DNA from: Oscillospiraceae bacterium
Lineage (GTDB): Bacteria; Bacillota; Clostridia; Oscillospirales; Oscillospiraceae
Direction of reading: 5' to 3'
Assembly: GCA_902778285.1 (NCBI GenBank)
Contig: CACYXC010000014.1
Span: forward strand, 1-58,029
DNA length: 58,029 nucleotides
Positions 25,821 to 57,988 of the stretch are shown piece by piece. The stretch's first letter is position 1. Each line of letters begins with the position of its first letter. Both the position numbers and the translations under genes were made by a program. The notes below the pieces were generated by a model, which saw nothing but the letters and a program-made list of their open reading frames with translations, was not told where the DNA came from and searched no databases.

Positions 25821-25829
25821 CAATATCGA

Positions 25830-26055
25830 ACACAGAAGCAGGACGGCACCTTGTGCCGCCCTGCTTCTGTGTCAAGCTGTCGACAAAGTGTCGACAGCTT
25901 GAAAAGCAAAAATGGGAACTTCCGAAAAAGTTCCCATTTTTGCACAGATTGTACCGCGAAAGGGGATTACATGCGAGTCCGACTTGCTCTGTATGGGTTT
26001 GTCTACAGTCTGACACAGAAGCAGGACGGCACCTTCTGCCGCCCTGCTTCTGTGT
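25830..26055. repeat. Hairpin array X bracketed by two near-identical hairpins
   Basis: Between rnpB and the lipoprotein gene. Outer hairpins at 25830-25872 and 26013-26055 share arms starting ACACAGAAGCAGGACGGCA and differ only in the loop. Inside are a 13-bp stem 25873-25885/25889-25901 (CAAGCTGTCGACA), a 16-bp stem 25906-25921/25928-25943 starting GCAAAAATGGGAACTT, and, on the minus strand, the core TCAGACTGTAGACAAA (25998-26013) followed by CCCA. Read on the minus strand the order matches array Y at 40787-40973. No gene present; short open frames here are not credible. Confidence 0.8.
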
Positions 26056-26077
26056 TTATGTTGCGCCGGGTATGAGA

Positions 26078-28273
26078 TCAGAACGGGTCGAAGAGGTATT
26101 CCACGATGAACCTCTCGCTGTGCTCCTCGAACAGGAAATCCAGATAGATCCCCTCTCCATCCGCGCCGATGGCGGAGTCGAGCACCTTCATGCCGTCGAT
26201 ATCGCTCAGCGCGGCATCCCAGGCGATCTGCCCCTCGAAATCGGTGCTCACGATTTTGCCGACGCATTTCTGCTCATCCAGCATCAGCATCACCTCTGCA
26301 CCCGTTGGCAGAGCCGTGTCGGAGACGGAGAGAATGATAAATCTGCCGTCCGCATCCAGCTCGTCAAGGAGCTCCCAGTCGTAGCTGTATCGTGAGACGG
26401 AGCGGAGCAGGTAAAGAGCGGAAGCAGCGTTCTTGGAGTCTGCGTCCGGGATCGCCGCATCCTCCGGCGCTATCAGCTTCGACAAGCGAGAGACGAAATC
26501 CGAGCCCATTGCCGAGAAGGCGAGATCCAGGGCCGCCTCGCTCAGCTCCTCCTCGCTGTGCAGGGCAGTCCGCTCGCCCTCGGGGAAGCGCAGCGGCTCC
26601 TCCGCCTGCACGCGGTGAACGGACGCGCGGACGCTGCCTTCAAAATCATCGTAGGCGATGCTGAGCTCCCGGTTTTCAGCTTCTCCGCCGAGTACGGCGC
26701 AGAGCATCAGATCGTCGAGGGTATAGCGCAGATCAAAATCGAGCATGCCGTCCGAGCGCGTGAACAGGTAGCTGAGCGCGGCGTCTTTCCTTGCTCCGCT
26801 CAGACGGCCCTTGACGGTACCGGCGTACTTTTCGAGCTCATTGAGCAGGAGGAACTCCGCCTCGTCGAAGTTGTAGTAGCTGACCAGCGCGTCGCGGCGC
26901 TGCGTCTCCAGCGTGCCGTAGGACTCGTAGCCGAAGCCTTCGCCGTACTCGTCGCGGAGCGTGAGAGCGAAGATTCGCCCGGCACCGACGGCCGCCTCAA
27001 TGGAGAGTCCGTCGAGCGAGTCCAGCAGATCGTTGAGATTATCACCTGCCGGGTCAAAGAGCTGCGGCAGCGCCTCGATCAGCTCTTCGACGTCGGAGAA
27101 GCCCATGTTGTAAAGACTGTTCTGGAAGCCGGGGGCAGCGCTCAGCGAGCGCAGCACCTTGCCCATGAGCTCCTGCAGCTCGTCGTCAGACTTCGCGTTG
27201 GACAGCAGATCGTTGATCATCGCGCGCCAGTCGCCTGCCTTCGGCGTGCAGCTGATGCACAGGCAGAAGGTCTCCTCCCCCAGCCCCTGCAGACGTACGA
27301 GGCCAAAGCGCTCCTCGGTGTTATGGGGGTTTGCCGCGCTGAACAGGATGCCGGCGTAGCGTTTGGCGAGCTCCTTCATGGCCTGCAGATCGAGTTTATC
27401 CTTCAGTGTGTCGAGCGAGGGCGCAGATAAGGAGATATCGCTCTCCTTCTGCGCCGCATTGATCAGCGCGCCCAGATCCTTGTAGCTGACGGTATAGATC
27501 TTCTCCGCGCTGCCGGGCAACGCAAGGCTCAGGCCCTCCTTTTCAAAGGACAAGAGCACGCGCAGGGGCTCTGAGCCGTTGAGGCTGAGATCCAGCGAGA
27601 GCAGCAGCGCGCCCTCCTGCGCGGTATCGACCCCCACGCGGACGGACGAGTCCTCCAGCGCCTTGTCGAGCGTACCGAAGCCGGAACTGCTCGCGGTGAT
27701 CAGGTACTCTTGGCGCACTTTCGCGTTCTTTTCGGCGGTCTTGTTGTCCGCCGGCTCCTGCACGTCCTTTTCGCGGAACAGATGCTCCACAAAGAAGTCC
27801 GAGCCGAGTCCCCTGCCCTCGGTCTCGCCGCAGCGGCGACAGGTCTTCGGCTGGAAGAAGGTCGCATCCTCCCAGTCATGGCCGAGCGCGGGAATCTCCT
27901 CCTGCGGCACGAGCACTTCTCCGCAGACGGAGCAGTGCGAGCCCTCGGTCAGGCCGGCCTCGGTGCAGCTCGGCTCGACGGCCGGGTCGGTCTCCCCGGT
28001 GTGGCCGAGCGCGGGAATCTCCTCCTGCGGCATGAGCACTTCTCCGCAGACGGAGCAGTGCGACCCCTCGGTCAGGCCGGCCTCGGTGCAGCTCGGACCC
28101 ACGGCCGGGTCGGTTTCCCCGGTGTGGCCGAGCGGCTCCCCAACGGTCTTGCCGCATTTTGCACAGGTGGATGCCTCCGTGCAGGTCGCGGGCCTCATAT
28201 CGTGCTGCAGGCAGCAGCCGCACAGCAGCAGCGCCAGCAGCAGGATAGAAAGCAGGCAGATTACTTTTTTCAT
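26078..28273 (-). CDS. Putative lipoprotein with tandem Cys-rich repeats
   Basis: 731 aa, not assigned to a known function. A signal peptide with lipobox-like LCGC (Cys20) suggests a surface lipoprotein. Residues 22-150 carry Cys motifs of the CxxCG type, including two 41-residue copies (49-89 and 90-130) with SCTEAGLTEGSHCSVCGEVL, then a related CRRCGE. The remaining ~580 residues are acidic, with no recognised domain. Such Cys repeats are common in surface proteins of gut Firmicutes. Perfect SD AAGGAGG and a strong promoter indicate good expression. Monocistronic. Confidence 0.85.
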   Translation of the reverse strand: MKKVICLLSILLLALLLCGCCLQHDMRPATCTEASTCAKCGKTVGEPLGHTGETDPAVGPSCTEAGLTEGSHCSVCGEVLMPQEEIPALGHTGETDPAVEPSCTEAGLTEGSHCSVCGEVLVPQEEIPALGHDWEDATFFQPKTCRRCGETEGRGLGSDFFVEHLFREKDVQEPADNKTAEKNAKVRQEYLITASSSGFGTLDKALEDSSVRVGVDTAQEGALLLSLDLSLNGSEPLRVLLSFEKEGLSLALPGSAEKIYTVSYKDLGALINAAQKESDISLSAPSLDTLKDKLDLQAMKELAKRYAGILFSAANPHNTEERFGLVRLQGLGEETFCLCISCTPKAGDWRAMINDLLSNAKSDDELQELMGKVLRSLSAAPGFQNSLYNMGFSDVEELIEALPQLFDPAGDNLNDLLDSLDGLSIEAAVGAGRIFALTLRDEYGEGFGYESYGTLETQRRDALVSYYNFDEAEFLLLNELEKYAGTVKGRLSGARKDAALSYLFTRSDGMLDFDLRYTLDDLMLCAVLGGEAENRELSIAYDDFEGSVRASVHRVQAEEPLRFPEGERTALHSEEELSEAALDLAFSAMGSDFVSRLSKLIAPEDAAIPDADSKNAASALYLLRSVSRYSYDWELLDELDADGRFIILSVSDTALPTGAEVMLMLDEQKCVGKIVSTDFEGQIAWDAALSDIDGMKVLDSAIGADGEGIYLDFLFEEHSERFIVEYLFDPF
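27884..28129 (-). repeat. 123-bp tandem coding repeat, two copies
   Basis: Nucleotides 28007-28129 and 27884-28006 encode consecutive 41-residue repeats that differ at only two residues (Gly/Glu before PSC, Met/Val before PQEE) and are nearly identical at DNA level, pointing to recent duplication or gene conversion. Confidence 0.85.
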
Positions 28274-28315
28274 CTGATCCTCCTTATTCTGGTTTTATGT
28301 AGAATATATATCTAA

Positions 28316-28344
28316 ATTGTAAGACACTCGCTCTTCGCTGTCAA
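28316..28344 (-). promoter_or_regulatory. Strong sigma-A promoter of the lipoprotein gene
   Basis: TTGACA (28339-28344), 17-nt spacer, TACAAT (28316-28321) on the minus strand. The -35 overlaps the pcp stop codon region. Confidence 0.85.
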
Positions 28345-28952
28345 GGCCGCTTCGCCGCGTCCGGGGGCAGCACGTCCAGCGCGGCGTATATTCCCTCAAC
28401 GATGCATGCCAGTGCCATTGACGCCTCACCCTCCTTCGCCTGTTCAGGCAGGCAGGGCACATGGATAAAGCCCGCGGGGATCGCGATACCTCGCCGCCGC
28501 AGCGCGTGCAGCAGGCCGTACATCAGATCGTTGCAGACGAAAGTGCCGGCGCTCTCGGAGATCTGCGCGGGGATGCCGCGCGCGAGGATCGCCGCGCACA
28601 TGGCCTCGACGGGAAGGGTCGAGTGCAGTTCGGCTTCGCCGCCCGGCACGACGGGCCGTTCAACGGGGCAGAAGCCCTCGTTGTCGGGGATTCGGGCGTT
28701 TCGCAGATTGACTGCCCGACGCTCGGGCGTGATCGCCTCCCGCCCCGCCGCCTGCCCGAGGCAGACGACGGCGTCAGGCCGCAGGCGACAGAGCGCGTCC
28801 AGCACCGTCTCCGTACAGCGGCCGAAGACCGTCGGCACCGTCAGGCGCACAAGCTCCGTGCCAGCCGGCGGCTCGACAAGCCTCATCGCCTCCAGCGAGG
28901 CGTTGATCCCCTCGCCCCCGAAGGGCTCGAAGGCAGTGAGCAGTATCGTCAT
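28341..28952 (-). CDS. pcp: Pyroglutamyl-peptidase I
   Basis: Cysteine peptidase (family C15) that removes N-terminal pyroglutamate. 203 aa with the family start TILLTAFEPFGGEGINAS, the Cys nucleophile in SAGTFVCNDLMYGLLH (near 145) and the His in GFIHVPCLPEQ (near 167); the catalytic Glu is expected in the AAGREAITPERRAVNL part. RBS GGGAGG before the ATG. Own promoter-like TTGCGC-17-TACACT upstream at about 28970-29010. No peptide transporter is adjacent. Confidence 0.95.
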   Translation of the reverse strand: MTILLTAFEPFGGEGINASLEAMRLVEPPAGTELVRLTVPTVFGRCTETVLDALCRLRPDAVVCLGQAAGREAITPERRAVNLRNARIPDNEGFCPVERPVVPGGEAELHSTLPVEAMCAAILARGIPAQISESAGTFVCNDLMYGLLHALRRRGIAIPAGFIHVPCLPEQAKEGEASMALACIVEGIYAALDVLPPDAAKRP

Positions 28953-29141
28953 AAGCTTCCCTCCCTGCTTCTTTATTCAGTGTATCACAGCCCGGCCTCC
29001 GGCGCAAGCCGCTGCGCGGTGTACACAAAGAACCCATCGTTATCATAATGCAATAGGCGGAACACATCCGCAGTTTTAGCTCTCTGCAGGGAGAATCGCG
29101 CCCATATTTTTTCTTCCCGTCCTGAAAGCGGAAAGAAAAAA

Positions 29142-29172
29142 CAGGCCCCCGCCCATTCCCGCGGGGACCTGT
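29142..29172 (-). terminator. Terminator after yebC
   Basis: Stem of about 12 bp (ACAGGCCCCCGC with GCGGGGACCTGT, one mismatch) followed on the minus strand by a run of T (29136-29141). It starts 22 nt after the yebC stop. Confidence 0.8.
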
Positions 29173-29194
29173 CAAATCTTTAGCTGAAAACGCG

Positions 29195-29935
29195 TTACTC
29201 TGCGTCTTCCCAGTTATGCCAGACGTTCTGGACGTCATCGAAATCCTCGAACATGTCGAGCATCTTCTGCATGTTCTTGATGTCGTCCTCATTGCTGAGC
29301 TTGATATAGCCGTTCTGCGGCAGCATCTCGACCTGAGCCTCAAGGAGCTTATAGCCTTTATCGGTCAGCGCTTCGGCCACGGCGGCCACATCGTCCTCGG
29401 CGGTGTATACGGTCATGGTCTCGCCCTCGGCCTCGAAGTCGGCGGCACCGGCGTCCAGCGCGTCCATCATCACGGTGTCCTCGTCGAGCTCCTCGTCCTC
29501 GTTGTCAATGACGATGACGCCCTTCCGGTCGAAGGACCAGCTGACGCAGTTGGCGGCGCCCATGTTCCCGCCGTACTTGTCGAAGTAGTGGCGGATCTCG
29601 CCCGCGGTGCGGTTGCGGTTGTCGGTCATGGTCTCGACGATGACGGCGACGCCCGAGGGACCGTAGCCTTCATAGGTGATCTTCTCGTAGTTCTCGGTGT
29701 TGCCCGCGCCGAGCGCCTTGTCGATGGTACGCTTGATGTTGTCGTTGGGCATGTTGGCGGCCTTCGCCTTGGCAATGACGGCGGCCAGCTTGGAGTTGGA
29801 GCGCGGGTCCCCGCCGCCGCCCTCCTTGACGGCCACGATCATCTCACGCGCGATCTTGGTAAAGGCCTGCGCGCGCTTGGCGTCCGCAGCGCCCTTGGTC
29901 TTCTGTATGTTATGCCATTTGGAATGTCCGGACAT
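29195..29935 (-). CDS. YebC/PmpR family DNA-binding/translation regulator
   Basis: 246-aa YebC-family protein, typical start MSGHSKWHNIQKTKGAADAK, then GGGDPRSNSKLAAVIAKAKA and an acidic middle domain. Members were annotated as transcription regulators; recent work on the family points to a role in translation of proline-rich stretches. Monocistronic: promoter TTGCAT-17-TAAAAT upstream and terminator downstream. The SD GGAG is 12 nt from the ATG, a little far. Confidence 0.95.
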   Translation of the reverse strand: MSGHSKWHNIQKTKGAADAKRAQAFTKIAREMIVAVKEGGGGDPRSNSKLAAVIAKAKAANMPNDNIKRTIDKALGAGNTENYEKITYEGYGPSGVAVIVETMTDNRNRTAGEIRHYFDKYGGNMGAANCVSWSFDRKGVIVIDNEDEELDEDTVMMDALDAGAADFEAEGETMTVYTAEDDVAAVAEALTDKGYKLLEAQVEMLPQNGYIKLSNEDDIKNMQKMLDMFEDFDDVQNVWHNWEDAE

Positions 29936-29973
29936 GGTGTAACAACTCCTCTTTCGTACGAATTAACGAAGGT

Positions 29974-30002
29974 ATTTTAGCACATTGTATCCGTTCATGC
30001 AA
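29974..30002 (-). promoter_or_regulatory. Sigma-A promoter of the yebC-family gene
   Basis: TTGCAT (29997-30002), 17-nt spacer, TAAAAT (29974-29979) on the minus strand, immediately after the sipL stop codon. Confidence 0.75.
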
Positions 30003-30012
30003 GAGCTTTGTA

Positions 30013-31488
30013 TCAAGAGCGCGGGATCAGCAGCATCTCCCCCGCCTCCTCCTGCGCAGGGTTTGCCGCCTCGATGGCCGCAACGCTCGAGTGATAGCGC
30101 CGTGCGAGTTCCCACAGGCTTTCCCCCTGCACGTGTACGAGCGTAAAGGCCGGGAGCGCAGCGCGGTCGATGGGATGCTCCTCGTCGAGCATCGCGCCCG
30201 TGAGAGCCTGCAGCGTCCGCTCGCCCCAGGTCTGGAAGCGCAGCTCCGCCTCAAGATCGCACTGGACCCCCTCGCCCTCCGGCTGCAGATCGCAGCGCTT
30301 CCACGTGAGCGACAGGATGTGCGCATCCTCTCCCGGCGTCTCGCCCCGCAGCGGCAGCTGCCTGTGTGCCGCCGCGATCTCCCCGTTCTTCGTGCGGTAC
30401 AGAAGATCCAGTTCGGCGCTCACCGCCCTATCCTGCCGCGAGAGCGCGGGCAGCACCGTCAGCAGCTCCGCGCAGTCCTCCCCGGCCCCGATCAGTTCCG
30501 AGGCAGTCAGGATCACGCTGCGCGTCTCCTCTGCCTGCGGAAGACTGAGCGCACATGACAGGCATCGAAGCGGCATCGCATTGGAGTAGGCGTCCGTCAG
30601 ACATTGAATCTTCTCCCGCGTGCGGCAGACGGCCTGCAGCACGGCGTGTACCTCCGTCGAGAGCGATACGCCGCCGATGCTGTCGGCCAGATCGAAGTAC
30701 AGCGAGGTCGTCTCGCAGCGTAGCGTACTGCAGACTGCGTCCTCCGTGCCGAGGTCCACGATCTGCGACAGCGGCGCCGTGAACTCATGCCGCAGCGGCC
30801 AGACAAAGCCTTCCGCCTCATAAAGTACCGCCAGCTTCAGCGTCCCTTTTACGATCAGGCGGCTGCCGATCCGGCTCGTCTCGCCGAGGGCGAAGGCGCT
30901 CTGGGCGCAGAGGATGCGCCGCGGAGCGGGCCGCTCCGCCGGGAAGACGAAGCTCTCGGTCAGCGCAAAGCTCTTCTCCCCTACAGCCGCGGCCGGCACA
31001 GCCGCTGCCTCTGTCTTCAGGCCGCACAGCAGCGCCGCGTCCTCCTCCGACGGCAGCAGCGTTATGACTGCCTCCTCCTTCTTCCAGAGCAAAGCCTCCA
31101 CGCCGATCTCCGCGCTGACGGAGAGCTTGCGCGGGTTGAGCACTTTTCCCTCCGTGCGCAGCACGCGCAGGAAGGTCTGCCCCTCGTCCGGCGTCTGGCC
31201 GGGCACGTCGATCACGGCTTCAAATTCCTTCGTCAGCCGAACAGTCTGCACGGCGTCGGCGTTTTCCGTGATACACAGCAGCACGGCTTCGACCTCGGCC
31301 CCGACGCGCAGGCCGCGGGCGTTCAGTTCCTTGCTCTTGAGCAGTACGTTGCAGCGGATCGAGGCGATGCGTCCGACGTCCTCGTTCACGTCCGGCACCA
31401 CGCCCTCGAGCTCGACCAGGCATTTCTCCTCGCTGTGCTGACATTCGCGCCAGATCCGGCGCGTCCCGGCTTCAAACTGCAGTTCCAT
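30013..31488 (-). CDS. sipL: SipL-like spore coat morphogenetic protein (SPOCS/DUF3794 + LysM)
   Basis: 491 aa. Two to three SPOCS (DUF3794) modules make up residues 1-430 (for example CLVELEGVVPDVNEDVGRIAS and LIVKGTLKLAVLYEAEG), and a LysM domain closes the protein (VHVQGESLWELARRYHSS to the end). This is the layout of SipL, which in Clostridioides binds SpoIVA through LysM to build the coat around the forespore. The gene overlaps spoVM, whose peptide marks the same membrane, giving strong support. SpoIVA itself is not in the window. No signal peptide, as expected. Confidence 0.88.
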   Translation of the reverse strand: MELQFEAGTRRIWRECQHSEEKCLVELEGVVPDVNEDVGRIASIRCNVLLKSKELNARGLRVGAEVEAVLLCITENADAVQTVRLTKEFEAVIDVPGQTPDEGQTFLRVLRTEGKVLNPRKLSVSAEIGVEALLWKKEEAVITLLPSEEDAALLCGLKTEAAAVPAAAVGEKSFALTESFVFPAERPAPRRILCAQSAFALGETSRIGSRLIVKGTLKLAVLYEAEGFVWPLRHEFTAPLSQIVDLGTEDAVCSTLRCETTSLYFDLADSIGGVSLSTEVHAVLQAVCRTREKIQCLTDAYSNAMPLRCLSCALSLPQAEETRSVILTASELIGAGEDCAELLTVLPALSRQDRAVSAELDLLYRTKNGEIAAAHRQLPLRGETPGEDAHILSLTWKRCDLQPEGEGVQCDLEAELRFQTWGERTLQALTGAMLDEEHPIDRAALPAFTLVHVQGESLWELARRYHSSVAAIEAANPAQEEAGEMLLIPRS

Positions 31489-31573
31489 TCTTTTCGCTCC
31501 TTTTGCTTCTTCCCCTCAGTCCGGCCAGCAGCCGTCCCAGAAAACGCGGCAGCCGGATCACATAGATCTTCAT
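31472..31573 (-). CDS. spoVM: Stage V sporulation protein M (SpoVM)
   Basis: 33-aa peptide starting MKIYVIRLPRFLGRLLAGL, matching Bacillus SpoVM (26 aa, MKFYTIKLPKFLGGIV...) over the amphipathic helix, including the essential Pro9. SpoVM recognises the convex forespore membrane and anchors SpoIVA and so the coat. ATG at 31573 follows GGGAGGGG; the C-terminus is Lys/Arg-rich and a few residues longer than in Bacillus. It overlaps the sipL start by 17 nt, so the two coat-base factors are translated together. Too short for most gene finders. Confidence 0.88.
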   Translation of the reverse strand: MKIYVIRLPRFLGRLLAGLRGRSKRSEKNGTAV

Positions 31574-31607
31574 GACCATCCCCTCCCCGCCTGACAGCGC
31601 AGCAGCG

Positions 31608-31760
31608 TCAGCAGCAGCGCAGCATCCACAGCCCCGCGGCGATCAGCAGCGCCGCAAACGCAAACCACCAGAACTGAGAAGGCAGCACCAGCGCCAGCAG
31701 GATAATAAGCCCCAGCACGATCGCGGTGACGCCCCAAAGCAGCCGCCGTCCTCCACGCAA
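31608..31760 (-). CDS. Possible 50-aa membrane peptide upstream of spoVM
   Basis: An open frame starting TTG with GGGGAGG about 8 nt upstream encodes a 50-aa peptide with two hydrophobic segments separated by LPSQFWWF, ending MLRCC. Not recognised. The SD is in the 3' arm of the cca terminator stem and the TTG is in its T run, so the start is uncertain. Length, hydrophobic pattern and the 34-nt spacing to spoVM make it plausible as the first gene of a spoVM-sipL unit. Confidence 0.5.
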   Translation of the reverse strand: MRGGRRLLWGVTAIVLGLIILLALVLPSQFWWFAFAALLIAAGLWMLRCC

Positions 31761-31811
31761 AAAACCGCCTCCCCGCAGCTGTATTCCCTACAGTCTACGC
31801 GAAAGGCGGTT
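31759..31811 (-). terminator. Terminator after cca
   Basis: AACCGCCT (minus strand, 31804-31811) pairs with AGGCGGTT (31763-31770), enclosing a smaller CTGTA...TACAG hairpin, and is followed by T residues. Located 33 nt after the cca stop. Confidence 0.75.
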
Positions 31812-31844
31812 GATTTATGAGAGAACAGTGAAGCGTTACGGTGT

Positions 31845-33227
31845 TCAGGGTTCTCCGTTTTGCTTGTGATACATGCCCAGGGTCTGGCGCAGCTGCTCCT
31901 CCTTACTGAGCCCGGCGAGGCGAAGCTTGTGCGCGTGCTCCAGCGCAGCGCTGAAGGAAGGGCCGGGTGTCATTCCGGCCTCGATCAGGTCGCGTCCCAT
32001 CACGTACGGACGCGCCATCAGCTCCCGATAATCCCGAAGGAGCGCGCGCAGCCTTTCCTCCGTCGGAGCATAAAGCCGCAGCCGCTCTTCGCGTGACTGC
32101 TCCGCTCCGCGGCAGCCGAGGAAGTCGGCCTTCGCAAGCAGCAGCAAATCCTCCGGGCAGACGGAGCGGTCGAAAAGCTTCATCCAGGTCCTGTGCCGCG
32201 CGTCGCTGAAGGCCATGGCGTTCGGAACCATGTGCAGCCTCGTCATGTTCAGCACATATTCTTTCAGCTTCGTTTCGCCTGTCAGCCGGTCGAGGAAGCG
32301 GCTGACGATCGGCAAGCCGAGCAGCTCATGCCGATAGGCGCGGTACTCGCCGCCGACGCACTCGGTGGCGACGGCCTTGCCCATGTCGTGGCAGAGGGAG
32401 GCGAGCATGAACCACAGCGGCTGCCGCGCCCGATCGCGCAGCAGAGCCGCCTCGTCGAGCGCCTGCAGCGTATGCGTCCAGGCGTCGCCCTCGGGGTGGT
32501 ATTTCGGCGGCTGAGGCACGCCGATAAGCGCCTTCGCCTCCGGAAACCAGAAGCCGAGCTGATCCATCTCCCGCAGTTCGCGCAAGAAAATAGAGGGCTT
32601 CGCTGCCTTGAGCAGCGCCTTCTCCATCTCACCCATCACGCGCTCGCGGGCAAGCGCGTCGAGCGCCATGCGCGAGCAGAGGGCGGCCGTCTCCGGCGCA
32701 ACATTGAACTCGAAGCGCGCGGCGAACTGACAGGCCCGAAGCACGCGCAGCGGGTCTTCGACGAAGCTCTGATCGTTCACGTGACGGATGCGCCTGGCTT
32801 TCAGATCCGCAAGGCCGCCGAAGAAGTCCAGCACCTCGCCGCTCAGCACGTCCTCCATCATGGCGTTGATCGTGAAATCGCGGCGCCGCGCCGCCTTCTC
32901 CTCGCCGAGGAAGGGATCGACAGAGACCGCAAAATCCTTGTGCCCGCGTCCGGTCGCCTTCTCGGAGCGGGGCATGGCGATGTCGAGCTCGCAGTGCCGC
33001 AGGCCCATAACGCCAAAGCTCGCGCCCATCAGCACAGGCTCGCCGAGCGCGCTGAGAATGCGCGTGAGCGCTTCGAACGGGATACCATGCACCTCGATGT
33101 CGATATCTTTGTTTTCCCGGCCGAGTAGCCGGTCGCGCACGAAGCCGCCCACAAAGTAGACGCGGCCGCCCTCGGCCGCCGCCGCCTCGGCGATGCGCCG
33201 TGCAACGCTCAGATCATTTTCTGACAT
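31845..33227 (-). CDS. cca: CCA tRNA nucleotidyltransferase / poly(A) polymerase family with HD domain
   Basis: Class II nucleotidyltransferase that adds or repairs the tRNA 3' CCA end. Residues 1-160 hold the fold with FVGGFVRDRLLGRENKDIDIEV and the RRRDFTINAM motif, then the neck helix (FVEDPLRVLRACQFAARF). Residues from about 245 carry an HD-type segment (PEGDAWTHTLQALDEA and SLCHDMGKA), as in bacterial CCA enzymes with phosphohydrolase activity. 460 aa. RBS AGAGGG before ATG. 42 nt after rsgA; in Bacillus rpe-thiN is found here instead. Confidence 0.9.
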   Translation of the reverse strand: MSENDLSVARRIAEAAAAEGGRVYFVGGFVRDRLLGRENKDIDIEVHGIPFEALTRILSALGEPVLMGASFGVMGLRHCELDIAMPRSEKATGRGHKDFAVSVDPFLGEEKAARRRDFTINAMMEDVLSGEVLDFFGGLADLKARRIRHVNDQSFVEDPLRVLRACQFAARFEFNVAPETAALCSRMALDALARERVMGEMEKALLKAAKPSIFLRELREMDQLGFWFPEAKALIGVPQPPKYHPEGDAWTHTLQALDEAALLRDRARQPLWFMLASLCHDMGKAVATECVGGEYRAYRHELLGLPIVSRFLDRLTGETKLKEYVLNMTRLHMVPNAMAFSDARHRTWMKLFDRSVCPEDLLLLAKADFLGCRGAEQSREERLRLYAPTEERLRALLRDYRELMARPYVMGRDLIEAGMTPGPSFSAALEHAHKLRLAGLSKEEQLRQTLGMYHKQNGEP

Positions 33228-33269
33228 GATGATCCCTCTGAAACGGGAGGGGTAGCCCCTCCCCTGCGG

Positions 33270-34148
33270 TCAGTCTTCCCAGCTTTTGTGTTGTGCGGAG
33301 AGCTCGTAGAGCCGCTCGTAGGAGCGGTAGCGGCTCGGTGCGATCCTCCCCGCGCGCACGGCCTCCGTCACCGCGCAGCCCGGCTCCTTCCGGTGCGCGC
33401 AGTCCGGGAAGCGGCACTTGCCCTCGTAGGGGCGGAAGTCGCGGAAATCGGCGGCGAGCTCCTCCTTCGGAATGATCTTCATCATCTCCAGCTCGAAGGA
33501 GGCGTAGCCCGGTGTGTCGGCGAGCCATGTGCCCTCTCCGAGATTGAAGAGCTCCACATGCCGCGTGGTATGTTTGCCCCGGCCCAGCTTCTCGCTGACC
33601 TCGGCGGTCCTGAGCGAGAGTTCGGGCGCGAGGCGGTTGAGCAGGCTGCTCTTGCCCACGCCGGAGTTGCCGGTGAAGGCGCAGACCTTCCCGCGGATCG
33701 CGTCGCGCAGCTCCTCGACGCCGCGTCCAGTCCCGGCGCTCGTCAGGATCACGGGGTAGCCAGCCGCGCGGTAGATCTGCTCGAGCTCTTCACCGGGGTC
33801 GAGATCCGTCTTGTTGACGCAGAGGATCAGCTCGCAGTCAGCCTCCTCCGCGATCACCGAGACACGGTCGATCAAGAAGGGATCGGTGACGGGGTTGACA
33901 TTCGCCGCGACGAAGATCAGCGCGTCGATATTGGCGACCGCCGGGCGGATGAAGAAGTTCCGCCGCTGCTCGACACCGTCGATGCGGCCGCGTCCGGCGG
34001 CGTCTGTGCTGCATCGCACACGGTCCCCCACGAGGGGCGAGGTGCCGTCGAGCCGAAAGCGCCCGCGTGCCTTGCACTCGAGGATGCCGTCCGCCGTCTG
34101 CACGTAATAGAAGCCGCTCAGGGCCTTGATGATGACGCCGTCCTTCAT
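33270..34148 (-). CDS. rsgA: Ribosome small subunit-dependent GTPase A
   Basis: Circularly permuted GTPase for late 30S maturation. N-terminal OB fold, G4 motif CVNKTDLD near 120, P-loop GNSGVGKSSLLNRL near 170, G3 DTPG near 215, and the C-terminal zinc site FPDCAHRKEPGCAV. 292 aa. Its ATG overlaps the prkC stop as ATGA, the usual placement after the kinase. Ends the cdaA-started superoperon as far as can be seen. Confidence 0.96.
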   Translation of the reverse strand: MKDGVIIKALSGFYYVQTADGILECKARGRFRLDGTSPLVGDRVRCSTDAAGRGRIDGVEQRRNFFIRPAVANIDALIFVAANVNPVTDPFLIDRVSVIAEEADCELILCVNKTDLDPGEELEQIYRAAGYPVILTSAGTGRGVEELRDAIRGKVCAFTGNSGVGKSSLLNRLAPELSLRTAEVSEKLGRGKHTTRHVELFNLGEGTWLADTPGYASFELEMMKIIPKEELAADFRDFRPYEGKCRFPDCAHRKEPGCAVTEAVRAGRIAPSRYRSYERLYELSAQHKSWED

Positions 34149-35824: not shown

Positions 35825-35826
35825 CC

Positions 35827-36570: not shown

Positions 36571-36574
36571 GGGA

Positions 36575-37618: not shown

Positions 37619-37620
37619 TT

Positions 37621-39854: not shown

Positions 39855-39857
39855 GCC

Positions 39858-40370: not shown

Positions 40371-40379
40371 ATGATTCAC

Positions 40380-40786
40380 ACTTTCTTATATAATTCAGTA
40401 TTCTTGATGGATAAGCAAAGAAAAATGATTATATTGATAATTCAGGGGGAGTTCAGAGGGGTTCTCCCCTCTGATTATTGCGTCTCAACGCGAAAACAAT
40501 TCAAATCGTTTTTCCGGGGGCGTGTACCTCGGAAAAACTCTTCTCGCCCTGCAAGTGTGCGAGCCATCGGCTTCACAAGCTCCGAATCGGCTCGCTTCCG
40601 TGTAAAGGCACGAAAGCTCGCTCTCTCCGCTGCTCAGCCTCTCAAATTCAAAGCATGAATGCTTTGAATTTGGAAGGAGAACGAAAGGAGCGGATATGGA
40701 GCTTTTTCGGCATTTTGGAACCGAATAAGCGGAATGAAGCGAGTTTCGTTTGACGTGCGAGTGCATGCAGCAGGGTGAAGCTCCTA
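40380..40786. other. Non-coding stretch with several hairpins (left part of the priA-def gap)
   Basis: No credible gene in about 400 nt. It holds stem-loops at 40453-40474 (TCAGAGGGG TTCT CCCCTCTGA, perfect), 40508-40538 (GTTTTTCCG/CGGAAAAAC), 40559-40595 (GCGAGCC/GGCTCGC enclosing a further stem) and a perfect 14-bp near-palindrome at 40643-40672 (CAAATTCAAAGCAT GA ...). It is within the superoperon, so these would be in the mRNA between priA and def. Confidence 0.6.
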
Positions 40787-40973
40787 AGAATTCAGCCTCT
40801 TTGAGGCTGAATTCTCAGACTGCAGACAAACCCAACGCGACCAGGATGGACGCGCATGGGGAGAGCGCGAGAGGGGATTGGTTATTCCCTCTCGCATTTC
40901 AATGTCAGCAAAAACAGGAACATTTTCGAATGTTTCTGTTTTTGCCTTTCAAGCCTCTTTGAGGCTGAATTCT
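40787..40973. repeat. Hairpin array Y with TCAGACTGYAGACAAA core
   Basis: 13-bp hairpin 40787-40799/40803-40815 with TTT loop, the core TCAGACTGCAGACAAA plus CCCA (40815-40834), a stem 40867-40877/40885-40895, a 17-bp stem 40908-40924/40929-40945 with a TTCG tetraloop and one G-T pair, then TTTCAAG and a second copy (40953-40973) of the right part of the first hairpin, ending at the priA stop codon. Same order as array X read on its minus strand. Confidence 0.8.
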
Positions 40974-43222: not shown

Positions 43223-43233
43223 GCGCGGGCAGC

Positions 43234-43422: not shown

Positions 43423-43477
43423 GGTCGTTGTTCTCCATTTCGTCCGCAAATGCGGAAGTATTGATAGTGACAGTGCG

Positions 43478-44328: not shown

Positions 44329-44337
44329 GGCCGCACC

Positions 44338-45216: not shown

Positions 45217-45229
45217 GTTTCCTCCCGCC

Positions 45230-47743: not shown

Positions 47744-47799
47744 ACACGATTCCCCGTTCTGCTTCAGCGCATACTTCCAATAATACTGTTTATTGTTTT

Positions 47800-47828
47800 A
47801 TTATACCGAAGCGCGCTTTCAATGTCAA
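47800..47828 (-). promoter_or_regulatory. Perfect-consensus sigma-A promoter of the cdaA superoperon
   Basis: TTGACA (47823-47828), 17-nt spacer, TATAAT (47800-47805) on the minus strand; about 55 nt of leader before cdaA. No other obvious promoter between here and the end of rsgA except possible weak ones in the priA-def gap. Confidence 0.9.
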
Positions 47829-47850
47829 TCGCACGGGGCAAATCTTATTC

Positions 47851-48975: not shown

Positions 48976-49223
48976 GGCATTACCTCCCGGTATTCCCCGT
49001 CCTGCTCCCGGCGGAAAAGTCTCCCGGTCCAGAGGCCGTTTCGCTTCAGCATCTCCGTCGCCTCCGGGACGCCCCGTCGGAGATTGATCGCGTAGCCGCA
49101 GCCGCTCGCGCTGAGTCCCGCGGGCGTTCTGCGTATGGTCACGGTATAGCCTGCGCGCTCAAGCAGGCGGGCAGCGCGCTGCGCCTGCGTCAGCGTGCGA
49201 AAGGTGATCAGATATTGTGTCAT
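48972..49223 (-). CDS. DUF3343 protein, putative Se/S carrier-like
   Basis: 83 aa with the pattern MTQYLITFRTLTQAQRAA...SASGCGYAINLR. The Cys of GCGY is conserved in the family, which is described as a putative sulfur/selenium carrier and often sits beside cysteine desulfurases. It precedes the desulfurase with a 4-nt overlap. GGGGGAC lies just before the ATG. Role inferred from context. Confidence 0.85.
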   Translation of the reverse strand: MTQYLITFRTLTQAQRAARLLERAGYTVTIRRTPAGLSASGCGYAINLRRGVPEATEMLKRNGLWTGRLFRREQDGEYREVMP

Positions 49224-49252
49224 AGGACCGTCCCCCGATAATAGACATGCGC

Positions 49253-49283
49253 AAGCGCCGCCGAGCAGGGCCCGGCGGCGCTT
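49253..49283 (-). terminator. Probable terminator or attenuator after ispF
   Basis: Perfect 11-bp GC-rich stem (AAGCGCCGCCG with CGGCGGCGCTT, 9-nt loop) between ispF and the DUF3343 gene. There is no T run after it, so termination may be incomplete or factor-dependent. Confidence 0.45.
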
Positions 49284-49323
49284 CCCTGTGCACGGATACA
49301 GTCCATCCTATGCACGCATGATG

Positions 49324-49797
49324 CTATTGTTCTTCGATCAGAGCGACGGCGTGGGCGGCGATGCCCAGTCCCTCACCGGAAAAGCCCAGTCCCTCCTCGG
49401 TGGTGGCCTTGACGCTGACGCGGCTCAAGTCCACACCCATTGCATCGGCGAGGATGCGACGCATCTCAGGGATATGAGGCGCAAGCTTCGGCCGCTGCGC
49501 GATCAGCGTACAGTCCACATTGCCGATGCGATAGCCGTTTTTATGCAGATACCCGGTCACGCTGCGGAGAAGCTCAACGCTGTCTGCGCCCTCGTATGCG
49601 GGATCCCTGTCGGGAAACAGCTGCCCGATATCGCCGAGCGCGGCCGCGCCGAGCAGCGCGTCCATCAGCGCGTGGGTCAGCACATCCGCATCCGAATGGC
49701 CGAGCAGCCCCTTCTCCCAGGGGATCTCCGCCCCGCCGAGAACGAGCCTTCGCCCCTCGACCAGCCTGTGCACGTCATAACCGTGTCCGATCCGCAT
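49324..49797 (-). CDS. ispF: 2-C-methyl-D-erythritol 2,4-cyclodiphosphate synthase
   Basis: 157-aa trimeric MEP-pathway enzyme. Metal ligands Asp8 and His10 in GHGYDVHRL, His in [10 protein letters not shown], and the ATTEEGLGF segment near the end. Starts 1 nt after ispD. Two MEP genes are placed downstream of mreB, separate from dxs. Confidence 0.97.
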
Positions 49798-49798
49798 C

Positions 49799-50539
49799 TC
49801 AGGCCTCCCGCGCTTTCAGGATCGCCTCGGCGAGGATCATGTCCCGCGGCGTGGTGAGCTTGATGTTGTCCTCGTCGCCGGGCACCGTCACGGTCTTCAC
49901 GCCCATCATCTCGACCGCCGAGCAGTCGTCCGTCAGCGGAAGCTCCTTTTCCATGGCCCTGGTCAGCGCGCCCTTGATGAACTCGGCCTTGAAGACCTGC
50001 GGGGTCTGCACGCGGAAGGTGATCGCGCGGTCCACGGTGCCGGCCACGAAGCCCTTGGCGTCCACGATCTTGAGCGTATCGGTGCTGGGAATAATCGGTA
50101 CGGCGGCGTAGTGCTCCTTCGCGGCACGGACAGTGCGCTCAATCAGCTCCTGCGATACAAGAGGCCGCGCGCCGTCGTGGATGGCGATCAGGTTCAGCCT
50201 GGGATCCGCCTCGCTCACGCCGACCAGAGCGGATTCCACGCGCGTGGCGCCGCCGGCCAGCACCTTGCTGACCTTGGAAATCTCAAAGCTCCTGCACAGG
50301 TCGGCCATCTCCTCGATGCGGTCGGCACGGGTGACGACGATGATCTCCGCGATCAGCGGGCAGGCCTCGAAAGCCCGCAGCGTTCTGGCAAGTACCGGGA
50401 TGCTGCCGAGAGCCGCGGTGAGCTTGTCGTTTCCCATACGCTCGGAGCTGCCCGCCGCCACGATCACGGCCGAGCAGCGCGGGTCCTTCTCTTTTTCACG
50501 GAACAGGTTCGTGATCGTTTTGACCTTCTCCAGATTCAT
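49799..50539 (-). CDS. ispD: 2-C-methyl-D-erythritol 4-phosphate cytidylyltransferase
   Basis: 246 aa. Nucleotide-binding [12 protein letters not shown] at residues 27-38, HDGARPLV, and the [10 protein letters not shown] segment. The first 20 residues ([17 protein letters not shown]) extend before the usual start, as in some clostridial proteins; a later start is not obvious. 3 nt after mreB. Confidence 0.95.
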
Positions 50540-50542
50540 AGC

Positions 50543-51574
50543 TTACCCCTTCAGCTGGCGCATACGGTAGAAGTTCATCATACCGTCCTGCATTTCGTCG
50601 AGATGCTTGAGCATCTTGCCCGCGCCGTAGGCCGCGCAGGAGATGGCGTCGTCCACCACCGCGGTGCGGATGCCCGTGCTGCGCTCGATCAGCCGATCCA
50701 TGCCGTAGATCAGACTGCCGCCGCCGGACATGATGATGCCGTTGCGGTCGAGATCGCCCACAAGCTGGGGCGGCGTGCGCTCGAGCACGCTGTGGATGGC
50801 CTCGAGGATGCGGTTCATCGGCTCCACAAAGGCCTCGATGGTTTCGTTTGCGCTGATGCTGACGGTCTTGGGCATGCTGCTGCTGAGATTGCGGCCGTGC
50901 ACTTCCTCCACGCCCATGTCCGGCCGCTGGAGCACGCAGCCGATATTGCGCTTGATCTCCTCCGCGGCGGACATGCCGATGAGCATGTTGTGCTTGCGGC
51001 GGACGTACTTGACGATGGCCTCGTCAAAGCTCGTGCCCGCGACCTTGATCGACTCGCACTCGACCACGCCGCCGGCGGAGATGACCGCGATTTCCGTGGT
51101 GCCGCCGCCGATGTCGATGACCATATGGCCCTCGGCTCTGCCGATATCCACGCCGGCGCCGAGCGCGGTGGCAACCGAGGTCTCGAGCAGATAGACCTTG
51201 CGGGCGCCGGCCTCGATGGCGGCGTCGATCACGGCGCGCTCTTCCACGCCGGTGATGCTGCTGGGAACGCAGGCGAGCACGCAGGGCTTGAACAGGCTGA
51301 AGGAGGTTACGCGGCTGACAAGCTCCCGCTGCATCTGCGCGGCCAGCTCATAGTCCGAGATGACGCCGTTTGCGATCGGGTGGATGGCCACGATGTTGGC
51401 CGGCGTGCGGCCCAGCATCTTCTGGGCCTCCTGTCCGACCTTCATCACCTTGCCGTTGACCTTGTTCACGGCCACCACGGTCGGTTCCCGGGCGACCATG
51501 CCCTTGCCCTTGACATAGACCAGGGTGGTCGAGGTCCCCATATCGATGGCAATGTCGCTTTCAAATATCTGCAT
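50543..51574 (-). CDS. mreB: Rod shape-determining protein MreB
   Basis: 343-aa actin-like ATPase for cell elongation. Phosphate loops IDMGTSTTLVYVKGKG and DIGGGTTEIAVIS, adenosine motif MSGGGSLIYGMD. It lacks mreC and mreD next to it, so it is one of possibly several MreB/Mbl paralogues; the close gene order comF-mreB-ispD-ispF is unlike Bacillus. Normal length. Confidence 0.95.
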   Translation of the reverse strand: MQIFESDIAIDMGTSTTLVYVKGKGMVAREPTVVAVNKVNGKVMKVGQEAQKMLGRTPANIVAIHPIANGVISDYELAAQMQRELVSRVTSFSLFKPCVLACVPSSITGVEERAVIDAAIEAGARKVYLLETSVATALGAGVDIGRAEGHMVIDIGGGTTEIAVISAGGVVECESIKVAGTSFDEAIVKYVRRKHNMLIGMSAAEEIKRNIGCVLQRPDMGVEEVHGRNLSSSMPKTVSISANETIEAFVEPMNRILEAIHSVLERTPPQLVGDLDRNGIIMSGGGSLIYGMDRLIERSTGIRTAVVDDAISCAAYGAGKMLKHLDEMQDGMMNFYRMRQLKG

Positions 51575-51593
51575 ATCGAATCACCTCAATGTG

Positions 51594-52256
51594 TTATCTG
51601 TCGTGAAAGCGGGTGCAGGCCACGGTGACCGCGAGCACTTCCTTCGCGCCCGCATGTTTCAGGACGGAGGCGCACTCCGAGAGCGTGGCGCCGGTGGTCA
51701 CGATGTCGTCCACCAGCAAAATGCGTCTGCCCGCCGTTTTCTCAGGGGCTGCAGACCGGTATACGCCGGAGACGTTGGCGCGCCGCTTCGCGGGGCTGCC
51801 CGTAGCGCTCTGGGCGGGATTGTTGCGGACTTTCCGCAGAAGTCCCTCGCAGGGGACGCCGGTCCTGCGGCTCAGCTCCACGGCCAGAAGCCGCGCCTGA
51901 TCATAGCCGCGCAAAAGCTTCCTGCGCCGGCTCAAAGGCACCCATGTGATACTATCGCAGGAAAACCCGTTTTCGTCAATACATTTTGACAGAAATTCTC
52001 CGTAAATCTTCGCGTAGCCGCTTAAACTGCCGAACTTGTAGCGCAGCAGGGAGTCGCGTACGCTGCCCTCGTAATACAGCGGCGAAACGCAGCGGGAGAT
52101 CCCCTTGATCGCGCGTTTCTGCCCCTCGCCGACGGTATAGGGCAGCGTCGCGCGGCAATGCCCGCAGACCGCGACGCCCCGGGGCATGAGGTTGTGACAG
52201 AAGACGCAGCGCGGCGGATACAGCAGATCCAGAAGACGCGAAAAGAGCGCGTTCAT
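51594..52256 (-). CDS. comFC: ComF family phosphoribosyltransferase-like protein
   Basis: 220 aa. N-terminal zinc-like Cys motif YPPRCVFCHNLMPRGVAVCGHC and the PRPP loop ILLVDDIVTTGATL near 175. ComF(C) assists ssDNA uptake in transformation and, more generally, replication/repair. Overlaps recD2 by 4 nt. comFA is not in the window. Confidence 0.93.
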   Translation of the reverse strand: MNALFSRLLDLLYPPRCVFCHNLMPRGVAVCGHCRATLPYTVGEGQKRAIKGISRCVSPLYYEGSVRDSLLRYKFGSLSGYAKIYGEFLSKCIDENGFSCDSITWVPLSRRRKLLRGYDQARLLAVELSRRTGVPCEGLLRKVRNNPAQSATGSPAKRRANVSGVYRSAAPEKTAGRRILLVDDIVTTGATLSECASVLKHAGAKEVLAVTVACTRFHDR

Positions 52257-54472
52257 AGGCTGGAAAGCGCCAGCAGGCGCAGCCGCAGCGCGGAGAAGCG
52301 CCGGGTCTGGCGAAAGTTGTCGATCATGCGGTAGGCCGTGCTGTCATCCCCGACGAGGATCAGAAGCTCCTTTGCGCGAGTGACCGCGGTATACAGCACG
52401 TCTCGCGTCATCAGCATCTGGGAATTGGCGGCCAGACACAGGATCACCGCGCGGTACTCGCTGCCCTGCGCCTTATGTACCGTCATGGCCCAGGCGTGCT
52501 CCAGCTCAAGCAGCGCGTCAAAGCCGAAGTCGGCAATCCGTCCGTCGAAGTCCACGGTCAGCGTCTCGCTGTCGTAGTCCATGTTGACGATACGACCGAT
52601 ATCGCCGTTGTAGACGCCGGTGCCGTGAAGCTTCCCGTCGGCGGAGCGCCAGAGCATGTCGTAGTTATTCTTCACCTGCATGACGCGATCGCCCACGCGG
52701 AAAACCGCTTCGCCGAAAAGCTTTTCCTTTTTCCCCTCCGCGGGGGGATTCAGCACCGCCTGCAGGCGCTTATTGAGGCTGACCGTCCCCAGCTCCCCTT
52801 TCCTCGTGGGCGAGAGGACCTGGATCTCCTCCGGCGCGATGCCCATTTTGCCCGGCAGCCGGACGGAGCAGAGCTCCGTGATCGTATCGACGGTGCTGCC
52901 GGCCTCCAGACGGCGCAGACGGAAGAAATCGCCCGCGTTCTCCGAGAGATTGGGGTGCTCGCCCTTGTTGATCAGATGGGCGTTGCGGACGATGCGGCTT
53001 CCCTCGTTCTGGCGAAAGATCTCCGTCAGGCGTACGGTCGGGACCGCGCCGCTGCGGATCACGGCGGAAAAGACATTGCCCGGCCCCACGGAGGGGAGCT
53101 GGTCGGCGTCGCCGACAAGGATGAGGCGCGCGTCCTCCGGGATGGCCCTCAGCAGTGCGTCCATCAGCAGAATGTCCACCATCGAGCACTCGTCGAGGAT
53201 CACCGCGCCGCAGTCGAGCTGGTCGCTCTCGTCCTTCGTGAAAATCACTTTGTCCCCATCGTCGGCGAATTTGGCGCCGAGCAGACGGTGCACCGTGGAG
53301 GCCTCCTGCCCTGTCAGCTCGGTCATGCGCTTGGCGGCGCGCCCGGTGGGGGCCGTGAGGAGCGTGCGGATGCCAAGCTCATCGAAGAGCGCGAGGATCG
53401 CGCGGATGGAAGTGGTCTTGCCGGTGCCGGGGCCGCCGGTAATGACGAGGATCTGATTGTTCAGCGCCATCTGCAGCGTCTGTTTCTGTTTGGCGGCGTA
53501 TTGGATGCCCTGCTGCTTTTCCAGCCGGGCGATCAGGCGCTCCGGGTCCGCCTGCTCGTGAAAGCGCTTGCGCGCCATGTGCGCGAGCTTCGCGGCGGCG
53601 TCTGTCTCCGCGGAATAGAGCTCCGGCAGATAGCAGGCCGTCAGATTTGCGATCTCGTCGAGGATCAGCAGCCCCGCGTCGGCCAGCATGGAGATGCTCT
53701 CGTCCGCCTCTTCTGCTGACACGCCGATGAGCTGCCCCGTGGCGGCGGCCAGCTTGTCGCGCGGGATGAACACATGGCCGTTGCCGGCATTGTGATTGAG
53801 TTCGAAGATCACGGCGGCGTTGATGCGGCTGCGGCTGTGCTCGTCCATGCCCGTGGCCATGGCCAGATGGTCCGCCTCCGAAAAGCTGCCGCCGATGTGC
53901 TCAGATGCGAGGATAAAAGGATTGGCCTGCAGCAGACTCAGCGCCTCGTCGCCGTAGTATTTGTACAGCCGCATGGCGAGCAGCGGGCGCAGACCGAAGG
54001 AACAGATATACTCCATCAGACGCCGCATGCCGGCCTGCTGGCGGAAGCTTGCGGAGATCTGTTTGGCCTTGATCGGACTGATGCCCCTGATCTCAGCGAG
54101 CTTTTCCGGCTCGTTTTCGATCACGTCGAGGCTCTTCGCACCGAAGCGGTTGACAATCAGAGAGGCCGTGGCCGGGCCGACGCCTTTCACCGAGCCGCCC
54201 GCGAGATACTCATAAATGGCGGGGGTGTCGGTGGGCATGAGGCGCTGGGCAAACTCGGCCTTGAACTGCCGCCCGTGCACGCTGTGCGTGGTCCACGCGC
54301 CGGAGAGCAGCATTGTCTCCCCCTGCGCGGCGTACGGGAAGCAGCCGACGACCGTGACGGTCTCGCCGTTTCCGTCCCGCAGGCGCAGGACAGTATAGCC
54401 GTTTTCTTCGTTTTTATAGATGACAGAATCGACCGTGCCGCTCAGCTCGGTGAGCATGCTGTCCTGATCCAT
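52253..54472 (-). CDS. recD2: ATP-dependent RecD2-like DNA helicase
   Basis: 739 aa. N-terminal OB/helix-hairpin-helix part (residues 1-200), then SF1B helicase motifs: Walker A GGPGTGKTTSIRA near 345, DECSMVD, and the VHKAQGSEY motif before the end. RecD2 acts without RecBC in Firmicutes, in replication-fork maintenance. Separated by 12 nt from uvrA. Confidence 0.95.
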   Translation of the reverse strand: MDQDSMLTELSGTVDSVIYKNEENGYTVLRLRDGNGETVTVVGCFPYAAQGETMLLSGAWTTHSVHGRQFKAEFAQRLMPTDTPAIYEYLAGGSVKGVGPATASLIVNRFGAKSLDVIENEPEKLAEIRGISPIKAKQISASFRQQAGMRRLMEYICSFGLRPLLAMRLYKYYGDEALSLLQANPFILASEHIGGSFSEADHLAMATGMDEHSRSRINAAVIFELNHNAGNGHVFIPRDKLAAATGQLIGVSAEEADESISMLADAGLLILDEIANLTACYLPELYSAETDAAAKLAHMARKRFHEQADPERLIARLEKQQGIQYAAKQKQTLQMALNNQILVITGGPGTGKTTSIRAILALFDELGIRTLLTAPTGRAAKRMTELTGQEASTVHRLLGAKFADDGDKVIFTKDESDQLDCGAVILDECSMVDILLMDALLRAIPEDARLILVGDADQLPSVGPGNVFSAVIRSGAVPTVRLTEIFRQNEGSRIVRNAHLINKGEHPNLSENAGDFFRLRRLEAGSTVDTITELCSVRLPGKMGIAPEEIQVLSPTRKGELGTVSLNKRLQAVLNPPAEGKKEKLFGEAVFRVGDRVMQVKNNYDMLWRSADGKLHGTGVYNGDIGRIVNMDYDSETLTVDFDGRIADFGFDALLELEHAWAMTVHKAQGSEYRAVILCLAANSQMLMTRDVLYTAVTRAKELLILVGDDSTAYRMIDNFRQTRRFSALRLRLLALSSL

Positions 54473-54484
54473 GGCGATGCTCCT

Positions 54485-57310
<2,826 letters not shown>

Positions 57311-57312
57311 AA

Positions 57313-57795
57313 TCAAACCTCAACTGCAATGTCCGCGGTCCGTCCGCGGGTCAGCTTCAGCAGCTCCGCCGGGGCAAGCTCGACCTGCCAGCCGATCTTT
57401 CCGGCGCTTACGAGCACCGTGCCAAGCCCCTCGATGCTGTTGTGGAAAAAAGTGGGATACTGCTTTTTCATTCCGATGGGCGAGCAGCCGCCGCGCACAT
57501 AGCCCGTCAGAGCGAGCAGCTCGCTGACTCTGACCATGGTGACGGACTTCTCTCCGACGGCCTTCGCCGCTTTCCGAAGTTCCAGCTCTGCGGTCACGGG
57601 GACCACAAAGACATAGATCTTTTTGCTGGCCCCTTGGGCAACCAGCGTTTTGAACACGTGTGCCGCGTCCTGTCCGGTGATCGCCGCGACGGTCAGCCCG
57701 TCCACGGCCTCGTCCCCGTGCGGATAGCTATGCGCCGTGTATGGGATCTTTTTCTGGTCCAGCATACGCATCACGTTGGTCTTCTGCTCGGCCAC
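57313..57795 (-). CDS. ybaK: YbaK/EbsC family Cys-tRNA(Pro)/aminoacyl-tRNA deacylase
   Basis: 160 aa, ybaK family: hydrolyses misacylated tRNA (Cys-tRNA-Pro). Conserved features KTLVAQG, YVFVVPV, and [23 protein letters not shown] start at 57795 preceded by GGGGGAG. Leading gene of the ybaK-uvrA-recD2-comF-mreB-ispD-ispF unit, overlapping uvrA region by none (2 nt apart). Confidence 0.93.
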
Positions 57796-57828
57796 GGCGA
57801 CTCCCCCTTCGTAAAATCTAACCTGTTT

Positions 57829-57857
57829 ATTTTACTCTATTTCTGTAATTCTTTCAA
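57829..57857 (-). promoter_or_regulatory. Sigma-A promoter of the ybaK-uvrA operon
   Basis: TTGAAA (57852-57857), 17-nt spacer, TAAAAT (57829-57834) on the minus strand; about 30 nt of leader before the ybaK GTG. Confidence 0.75.
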
Positions 57858-57906
57858 TAGAAAATGATGAATTGTTTCAGCAAAATGTGTTGTAAACACA
57901 ATACAA

Positions 57907-57988
57907 CAGGCGGCTGAGATCAGCCGCCTGTCAGACTGTAGACAAAGTACCCATAGGGAGTGCGAAAGCACTTTCTATGGGTACTTTG
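57907..57988. repeat. Hairpin element Z with TCAGACTGTAGACAAA core
   Basis: An 11-bp hairpin (57907-57917/57920-57930, CAGGCGGCTGA) directly followed by the core TCAGACTGTAGACAAA (57931-57946) and a large hairpin 57943-57956/57975-57988 whose tip is AGTGC GAAA GCACT (GNRA-type loop). Shares hairpin plus core with arrays X and Y, but with a different second hairpin. Lies between the divergent ybaK promoter and the next gene. Confidence 0.7.

Follow-up and report, generated by a model that had tools for sequence, protein, structure and literature searches.

Whole terminator-like hairpins flank miniature elements and their IS1182-family relative in an Oscillospiraceae genome

DDE transposases are normally described as generating a target-site duplication (TSD) of fixed length. 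The systems closest to the one reported here are IS1272 and TnSha1, staphylococcal members of the IS1182 family, which insert into hairpins without a sequence consensus, several of which are transcription terminators (PMC5678879, PMC4923244). In the Discussion of PMC5678879, hairpin duplication figures solely as one branch of a model, pathway b; IS1272 is placed on a different pathway, which ends with loss of the hairpin. Moreover, miniature inverted-repeat transposable elements (MITEs) of the IS1182 family are on record from Methanosarcina acetivorans: the accessible part of PMC3852290 lists 160 and 169 bp for the ISMac2 group, with 14 and 7 copies, and two size figures per table row (26 and 4; 25 and 0), which the table note explains as repeat sizes. 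Hairpin targeting by the IS1182 family (PMC4923244, PMC5678879) and IS1182 MITEs (PMC3852290) are, going by these partial sources, already known. Here we describe three related loci, X, Y and Z, in a stretch of 58,029 nucleotides from an Oscillospiraceae bacterium (contig CACYXC010000014.1, positions 1 to 58,029; hereafter the window). With a probability of roughly 0.85, we read X and Y as MITE copies that were moved in trans by the predicted IS1182-family transposase of the longer insertion sequence (IS) beginning at Z.

The new system is like IS1272 and TnSha1 in family membership, in its hairpin targets and in its terminal inverted repeats; unlike these two, whose target hairpin is lost without a TSD according to the available portions of PMC5678879 and PMC4923244, it duplicates the hairpin as a whole. 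With the ISMac2-group MITEs it shares the combination of a short MITE and an IS1182 partner, whereas these are present in far fewer copies and have no long duplication listed in the accessible part of PMC3852290. IS elements that target repetitive extragenic palindromic (REP) sequences likewise use extragenic palindromes; REPs, however, are a repeated sequence as far as PMC1525189 is accessible, while each target here is a different terminator-like hairpin. The pneumococcal BOX, RUP and SPRITE repeats are also small, dispersed, intergenic stem-loop repeats, SPRITE being terminator-like, and duplication of a target terminator was not found reported in the available portions of PMC10969869 and PMC3049150. 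Within the open-licence literature of PubMed Central, a scope outside which ISfinder and subscription reviews lie, we found no report of whole-hairpin TSDs, nor of their regular occurrence, of a high-copy MITE using such duplication or of a transposase clade linked to it. A review table reportedly gives a wide range of repeat lengths for the IS1182 family, and specialists may know single cases.

The three loci were grouped in a preliminary description, made from the letters of the window, as one structured family with a shared 16-mer, TCAGACTGYAGACAAA. This core is present exactly at X (25998-26013, minus strand), Y (40815-40830, plus strand) and Z (57931-57946, plus strand), each time immediately preceded by a hairpin; with up to three mismatches, the window contains six matches, compared to a mean of 0.32 in shuffled sequences. 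Its leading T has to be subtracted, as it is part of the flanking hairpin and the element starts at CAGACTG. The long GCAAAAA...TTTTTGC hairpin described for X and Y (H2 in Table 1) was likewise recovered, with compensated arms and a subsequent TTTCAAG; it is absent from Z, which has its own hairpin (57947-57984). The element was also said to be abundant, and the 15-mer CAGACTGYAGACAAA indeed occurs 53 times in forward and 55 times in reverse orientation, giving 108 copies in the genome, where a reversed-pattern control yields none; three copies in the window correspond to the number expected from the genome average. Relatives carry it as well: 37 of 400 family genomes, including this one, contain the 15-mer. 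Because the reversed pattern is also matched in 5 of these 400 genomes, lone 15-mer matches in distant genomes may be due to chance. The element starts with CAGACTGTAGACAAA and ends with TTTGTCGACAGCTTG, which together form an imperfect inverted repeat, and full-length MITE copies measure about 162 bp.

The main finding concerns the flanks of the element, for which we analyzed 99 of the 108 genomic places (100 were listed, one of which was removed as a duplicate by its sequence key). In 77 of the 99 copies, the hairpin of the respective locus, 15-43 bp in length, stands outside both element ends; the two hairpins are identical in 64 of these 77 copies, and in 72 they form palindromes of 7 or more net pairs. 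The left junction coincides with the end of a hairpin of 10 or more net pairs in 85 of the 99 copies, compared to 144 of 5000 random positions. At a flank-pair score of at least 18, true pairs outnumber swapped pairs by far, both in this genome (76/88 vs 15/1306) and in other genomes of the family (19/52 vs 2/768). Since true flank pairs match and swapped pairs rarely do so, the hairpins are locus-specific. Judged by this pattern, the whole hairpin is the TSD, with a length that varies with that of the hairpin.

The same pattern is found for the partner IS. Z is predicted to be the left end of a longer element carrying an IS1182-family transposase: In contigs of other assemblies (15 stretches), its left end runs on into a reading frame, and at two loci (L033 and L041; handles with G, C and L are our own for genomes, contigs and loci) this left end leads into an IS1182 transposase. 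The 139-amino-acid N-terminal part encoded at L033 matches NF033551 (E 9.9e-49) and DUF772 (E 1.7e-23); its 166.5 bits are below the 270-bit whole-protein cut-off of NF033551 because the sequence is a fragment. The terminal inverted repeats of the window IS are CAGACTGTAGACAAA and CAGACCGTAGACAAA, and the left repeat of the MITE is identical to that of the IS in 15 of 15 positions. The association with a transposase, for which the preliminary description had suggested a check, lies in a terminal repeat common to the element and an IS with an IS1182-type transposase. Downstream of the core at Z, the hairpin at 57947-57984 is followed by a ribosome-binding-site-like stretch and by ATGATGAC at the end of the window. 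The 26-bp target hairpin of Z recurs on contig C16, directly after the IS right end ...TTTGTCTACGGTCTG; the two ends of the full IS in this genome are accordingly located at Z and on C16, with the same 26-bp hairpin at each. At one further site, a MITE left end (L064, end of contig C23) and an IS right end (L186, start of contig C31) have a 32-bp hairpin in common; this points to interchangeable ends or to a composite or hybrid element, although an assembly mix-up is possible. Together with the type of hairpin TSD found for both MITE and IS, this site would be indirect evidence that the MITE is mobilized by the IS transposase. In viral contigs, one scan with a 25-mer of the IS left end gave no match.

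For the IS copies in drafts of other genomes, the right end was mostly not reached. We searched 149 genomes of the phylum at E ≤1e-60, scoring up to 9 candidates per genome, and obtained IS1182 matches in 24 of them; 50 loci from these 24 genomes were scored for TSDs by a simple repeat finder, and three of the loci lack a central reading frame. In G460, G447, G545, G433 and G085, the transposases exceed the NF033551 cut-off and whole-hairpin repeats surround the intact reading frame. Hairpin repeats are also present at L260 and L259, though the repeat script missed the former and under-scored the palindrome of the latter. G460, a single-contig genome, is the most extensive case: Of 34 inspected places of CAGACTGTCGACAAAG, 29 are bordered by a TSD that forms a hairpin and spans 19-35 bp, which is exact in 28 cases and has a single mismatch in one, and 24 of these 29 IS copies are exactly 1595 bp long. 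The five other copies show the left hairpin by eye. In four copies without a scored TSD (L303, L311, L314, L325) the right end is beyond the fetched stretch; there, the IS is longer than this stretch, whose end falls inside a second coding sequence, by eye probably another mobile element.

A tree of 22 transposases places the window IS (a partial row with 25% of the columns filled), the five hairpin-duplicating relatives as well as G030, G568 and G509 in one clade with a support of 100/99, while no hairpin repeat was seen in the examined loci of rows outside it. The clade holding the window IS and the five hairpin-TSD genomes is well supported. The clustering of the script-scored TSD label is suggestive only (3 label changes; 29 of 500 shuffles equally low) and is weakened because G568 and G509 count as negative: By eye, both have hairpins at their visible ends, G568 two different ones and G509 one at its right end, its left end being a contig end. 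At the level of sequence, MITE and IS have in common a terminal repeat, a locus-specific hairpin on both sides and a TSD length that varies with the hairpin, and the pattern recurs in the intact IS relatives of a single-contig genome and in a single transposase clade. That the MITE and its IS1182 relative have whole-hairpin TSDs is, in our judgment, nearly certain. Near-identical IS copies within one genome have TSDs of 19-35 bp, each of which is a whole terminator-like hairpin.

These flanks also bear on stem-loop replacement as known from IS1272, by which the element would take the place of a hairpin and the flanking hairpins would be its old neighbors. Replacement would agree with the shared transposase family and the hairpin targets (PMC5678879 and PMC4923244, as far as accessible), and five elements (L250, L218, L132, L150 and L034) each lie between two different hairpins. 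The same hairpin on both sides, however, as observed for the 29 G460 copies and the 77 copies of this genome, is not a product of replacement, which is thereby refuted as the general mode and very unlikely as an account of the family; for the few elements whose two hairpins differ, replacement may hold.

Several observations weigh against duplication of the whole hairpin by the window IS and its MITE. Among the 99 copies, 22 are without a repeated flank; 12 of these run into a contig end within 400 bp, the other 10 do not. In the other family genomes, 33 of 52 copies score below 18, meaning that for most tested copies there a good repeat was lost or never present. The stem often pairs 2-4 nt past the TSD: the distance of both feet from the edges of the TSD is at most 3 nt in just 46 of 75 copies, and pairing in G460 persists at the two positions immediately beyond the TSD in 18 and 22 of 28 cases. 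Because pairing runs 2-4 nt on into many A/T tracts, the position of joining does not coincide precisely with the final pair of the stem. The intact IS copies L250 (one of the 34 in G460) and L218 (G568) are situated between two different hairpins, possibly as a result of rearrangement between IS copies or of replacement-type insertion; a reciprocal partner of L250 was not seen among the 34 copies of G460. Finally, the transposase was not found in the draft assembly of this genome, because its contigs break within the IS.

Beyond being palindromic, the target resembles a terminator. Across 75 copies, the 6 nt past the outer right hairpin contain on average 3.1 T and the 6 nt preceding the outer left hairpin 3.5 A, while the 6 nt past the inner left hairpin contain 1.0 T (T background 1.15). 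Since the outer copies retain the A-tract and the T-tract, termination is likely preserved in both directions after insertion. For X, whose target is the terminator-like hairpin of the RNase P RNA gene, the corresponding region downstream of rnpB was compared in 19 other genomes of the genus that have the gene (150 bases each): The element was not seen in any of them, and by eye 16 contain a single hairpin and one (L207) none, while two (L209, L210/L211) were not judgeable. As the hairpin sequences differ among these genomes, this represents a comparative empty state rather than an allele.

How a TSD could adopt the length of its target is best explained by a transposase that reads the terminator hairpin by its structure instead of its sequence. 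The palindrome would be extruded as a cruciform, thereby bringing both 5' feet together at the junction; joining of the element at these feet, followed by gap filling, as in pathway b of PMC5678879, would copy the stem-loop on each side, so that insertion at the hairpin foot would duplicate the whole stem-loop and keep the stop signal after the jump. We consider it probable that this IS1182 clade gauges its target in this manner, with both 5' feet joined and a TSD as long as the target stem-loop, and an extruded hairpin or cruciform is the form that we favor as the one recognized; a cruciform and a single-strand hairpin are both candidates. A fixed stagger on linear DNA fits poorly, because TSD length follows the hairpin. 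One may instead assume ordinary duplex insertion with a variable stagger and ascribe the hits in terminators to their bending, their AT flanks or the tolerance of insertions there. The outer A- and T-tracts are compatible with this assumption, as is the G460 TSD, whose first base is A in 24 and whose last base is T in 25 of 28 cases; in addition, insertions into terminators are harmless and would survive selection. Selection or AT preference nevertheless leaves unexplained that the edges of the TSD keep to the feet of the hairpin across lengths of 19-35 bp in near-identical IS copies, and we regard duplex insertion as unlikely.

If recognition by structure is correct, insertion would be safe, as each outer side would again carry an intact terminator, and over 100 terminators in a single genome would be open to MITEs with no loss of termination being evident. 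The whole-hairpin TSDs of variable length account for MITEs filling terminators at little damage and provide natural evidence for the branch that is drawn as a possibility in the Discussion of PMC5678879. Target recognition via DNA secondary structure becomes directly testable, and the duplicated hairpin around a repeat offers a simple signature by which such elements can be detected and the contigs of drafts put in order.

The preliminary description had understood the loci as a dispersed structured element, and this part stands; we now read it as mobile DNA, namely a MITE. When aligned, 15 elements taken from several genera show three hairpins with 41 consensus pairs, 18 of which are changed on both sides, and the order H1-H2-H3 is preserved in G319, G200, G209 and G197. 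H3 contains the right terminal repeat, and this repeat and the inner arm vary in concert. Such covarying stems would be expected of a structured RNA family, a riboswitch or small RNA spread through its function for the host with mobility being secondary. They may, however, reflect selection on DNA or on RNA structure or template switching in replication, which can also yield covariation of inverted repeats; covariation alone is therefore no proof of an RNA function. Furthermore, the insertion sites are downstream of genes and within terminator hairpins, and Rfam contains no family matching the element at the gathering threshold, its sole match in the window being RNase P. In view of the duplication of locus-specific hairpins and of a terminal repeat that belongs to an IS, we set RNA function aside as the leading explanation and hold it to be quite improbable.

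An artefact of metagenome assembly was considered on account of the short copies, of which 15 of 56 did not fit the break analysis. Among those fitted, the retained part measures 93-101 nt at the 5' side in 19 of 20 copies on the plus strand and 92-102 nt at the 3' side in 21 of 21 on the minus strand; the same break distance in contig direction is the signature of an assembler. Consequently, most short internal MITE variants are rejected as biology, as 40 of the 41 fitted copies break 92-102 nt from one side. The artefact affects the interior of the element and not its flanks, and the duplicated hairpins occur in other assemblies and in the single contig of G460 as well. As the source of hairpin duplication it is thus refuted and its probability close to nil; the duplication is independent of the short copies broken by the assembler. 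Y is the exception among the 41 fitted copies, with 136 nt kept: Y (40816-40973) appears to have lost its right end together with one arm of the second target hairpin, and the junction is unlike the assembler signature of the other short copies. The features of X and Y are compiled in Table 1.

Table 1. Features of loci X and Y and of the adjacent RNase P RNA gene in the window.
Feature	Position	Strand	Remark
X left-side target hairpin copy	26013..26055	-	43 bp; 1 of 43 bases differs from the other copy
X MITE	25873..26012	-	140 bp as assembled (full-length copies elsewhere about 162 bp)
X left terminal inverted repeat CAGACTGTAGACAAA	25998..26012	-	
X internal hairpin H2 (GCAAAAA...TTTTTGC)	25906..25943	-	
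X right end, hairpin H3	25873..25901	-	outer arm is the right terminal repeat
X second target hairpin copy	25830..25872	-	immediately 3' of the RNase P RNA gene
RNase P RNA gene	25455..25821	+	provides the target of X, a terminator-like hairpin
Y left-side target hairpin copy	40786..40815	+	30 bp
Y MITE	40816..40951	+	136 bp, without right end
Y internal hairpin H1	40867..40895	+	
Y internal hairpin H2	40908..40945	+	
Y partial second target hairpin copy	40952..40973	+	22 bp

Further elements with related ends were observed. Very short ones at L034 (3726-3795), L132 (around 1200) and L150 (around 500) are a single long palindrome, in which both terminal repeats flank a hairpin; they have no TSD and lie between different hairpins, as stated above. 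At L188 (around 1500), a MITE-like interior is combined with the IS-type end CAGACCGTAGACAAAC. Additionally, MITEs at L118, L120, L175, L181, L173 and L174 have the same left repeat and other interior hairpins: several MITE families share the same ends, and the target hairpins of these copies are duplicated, too.

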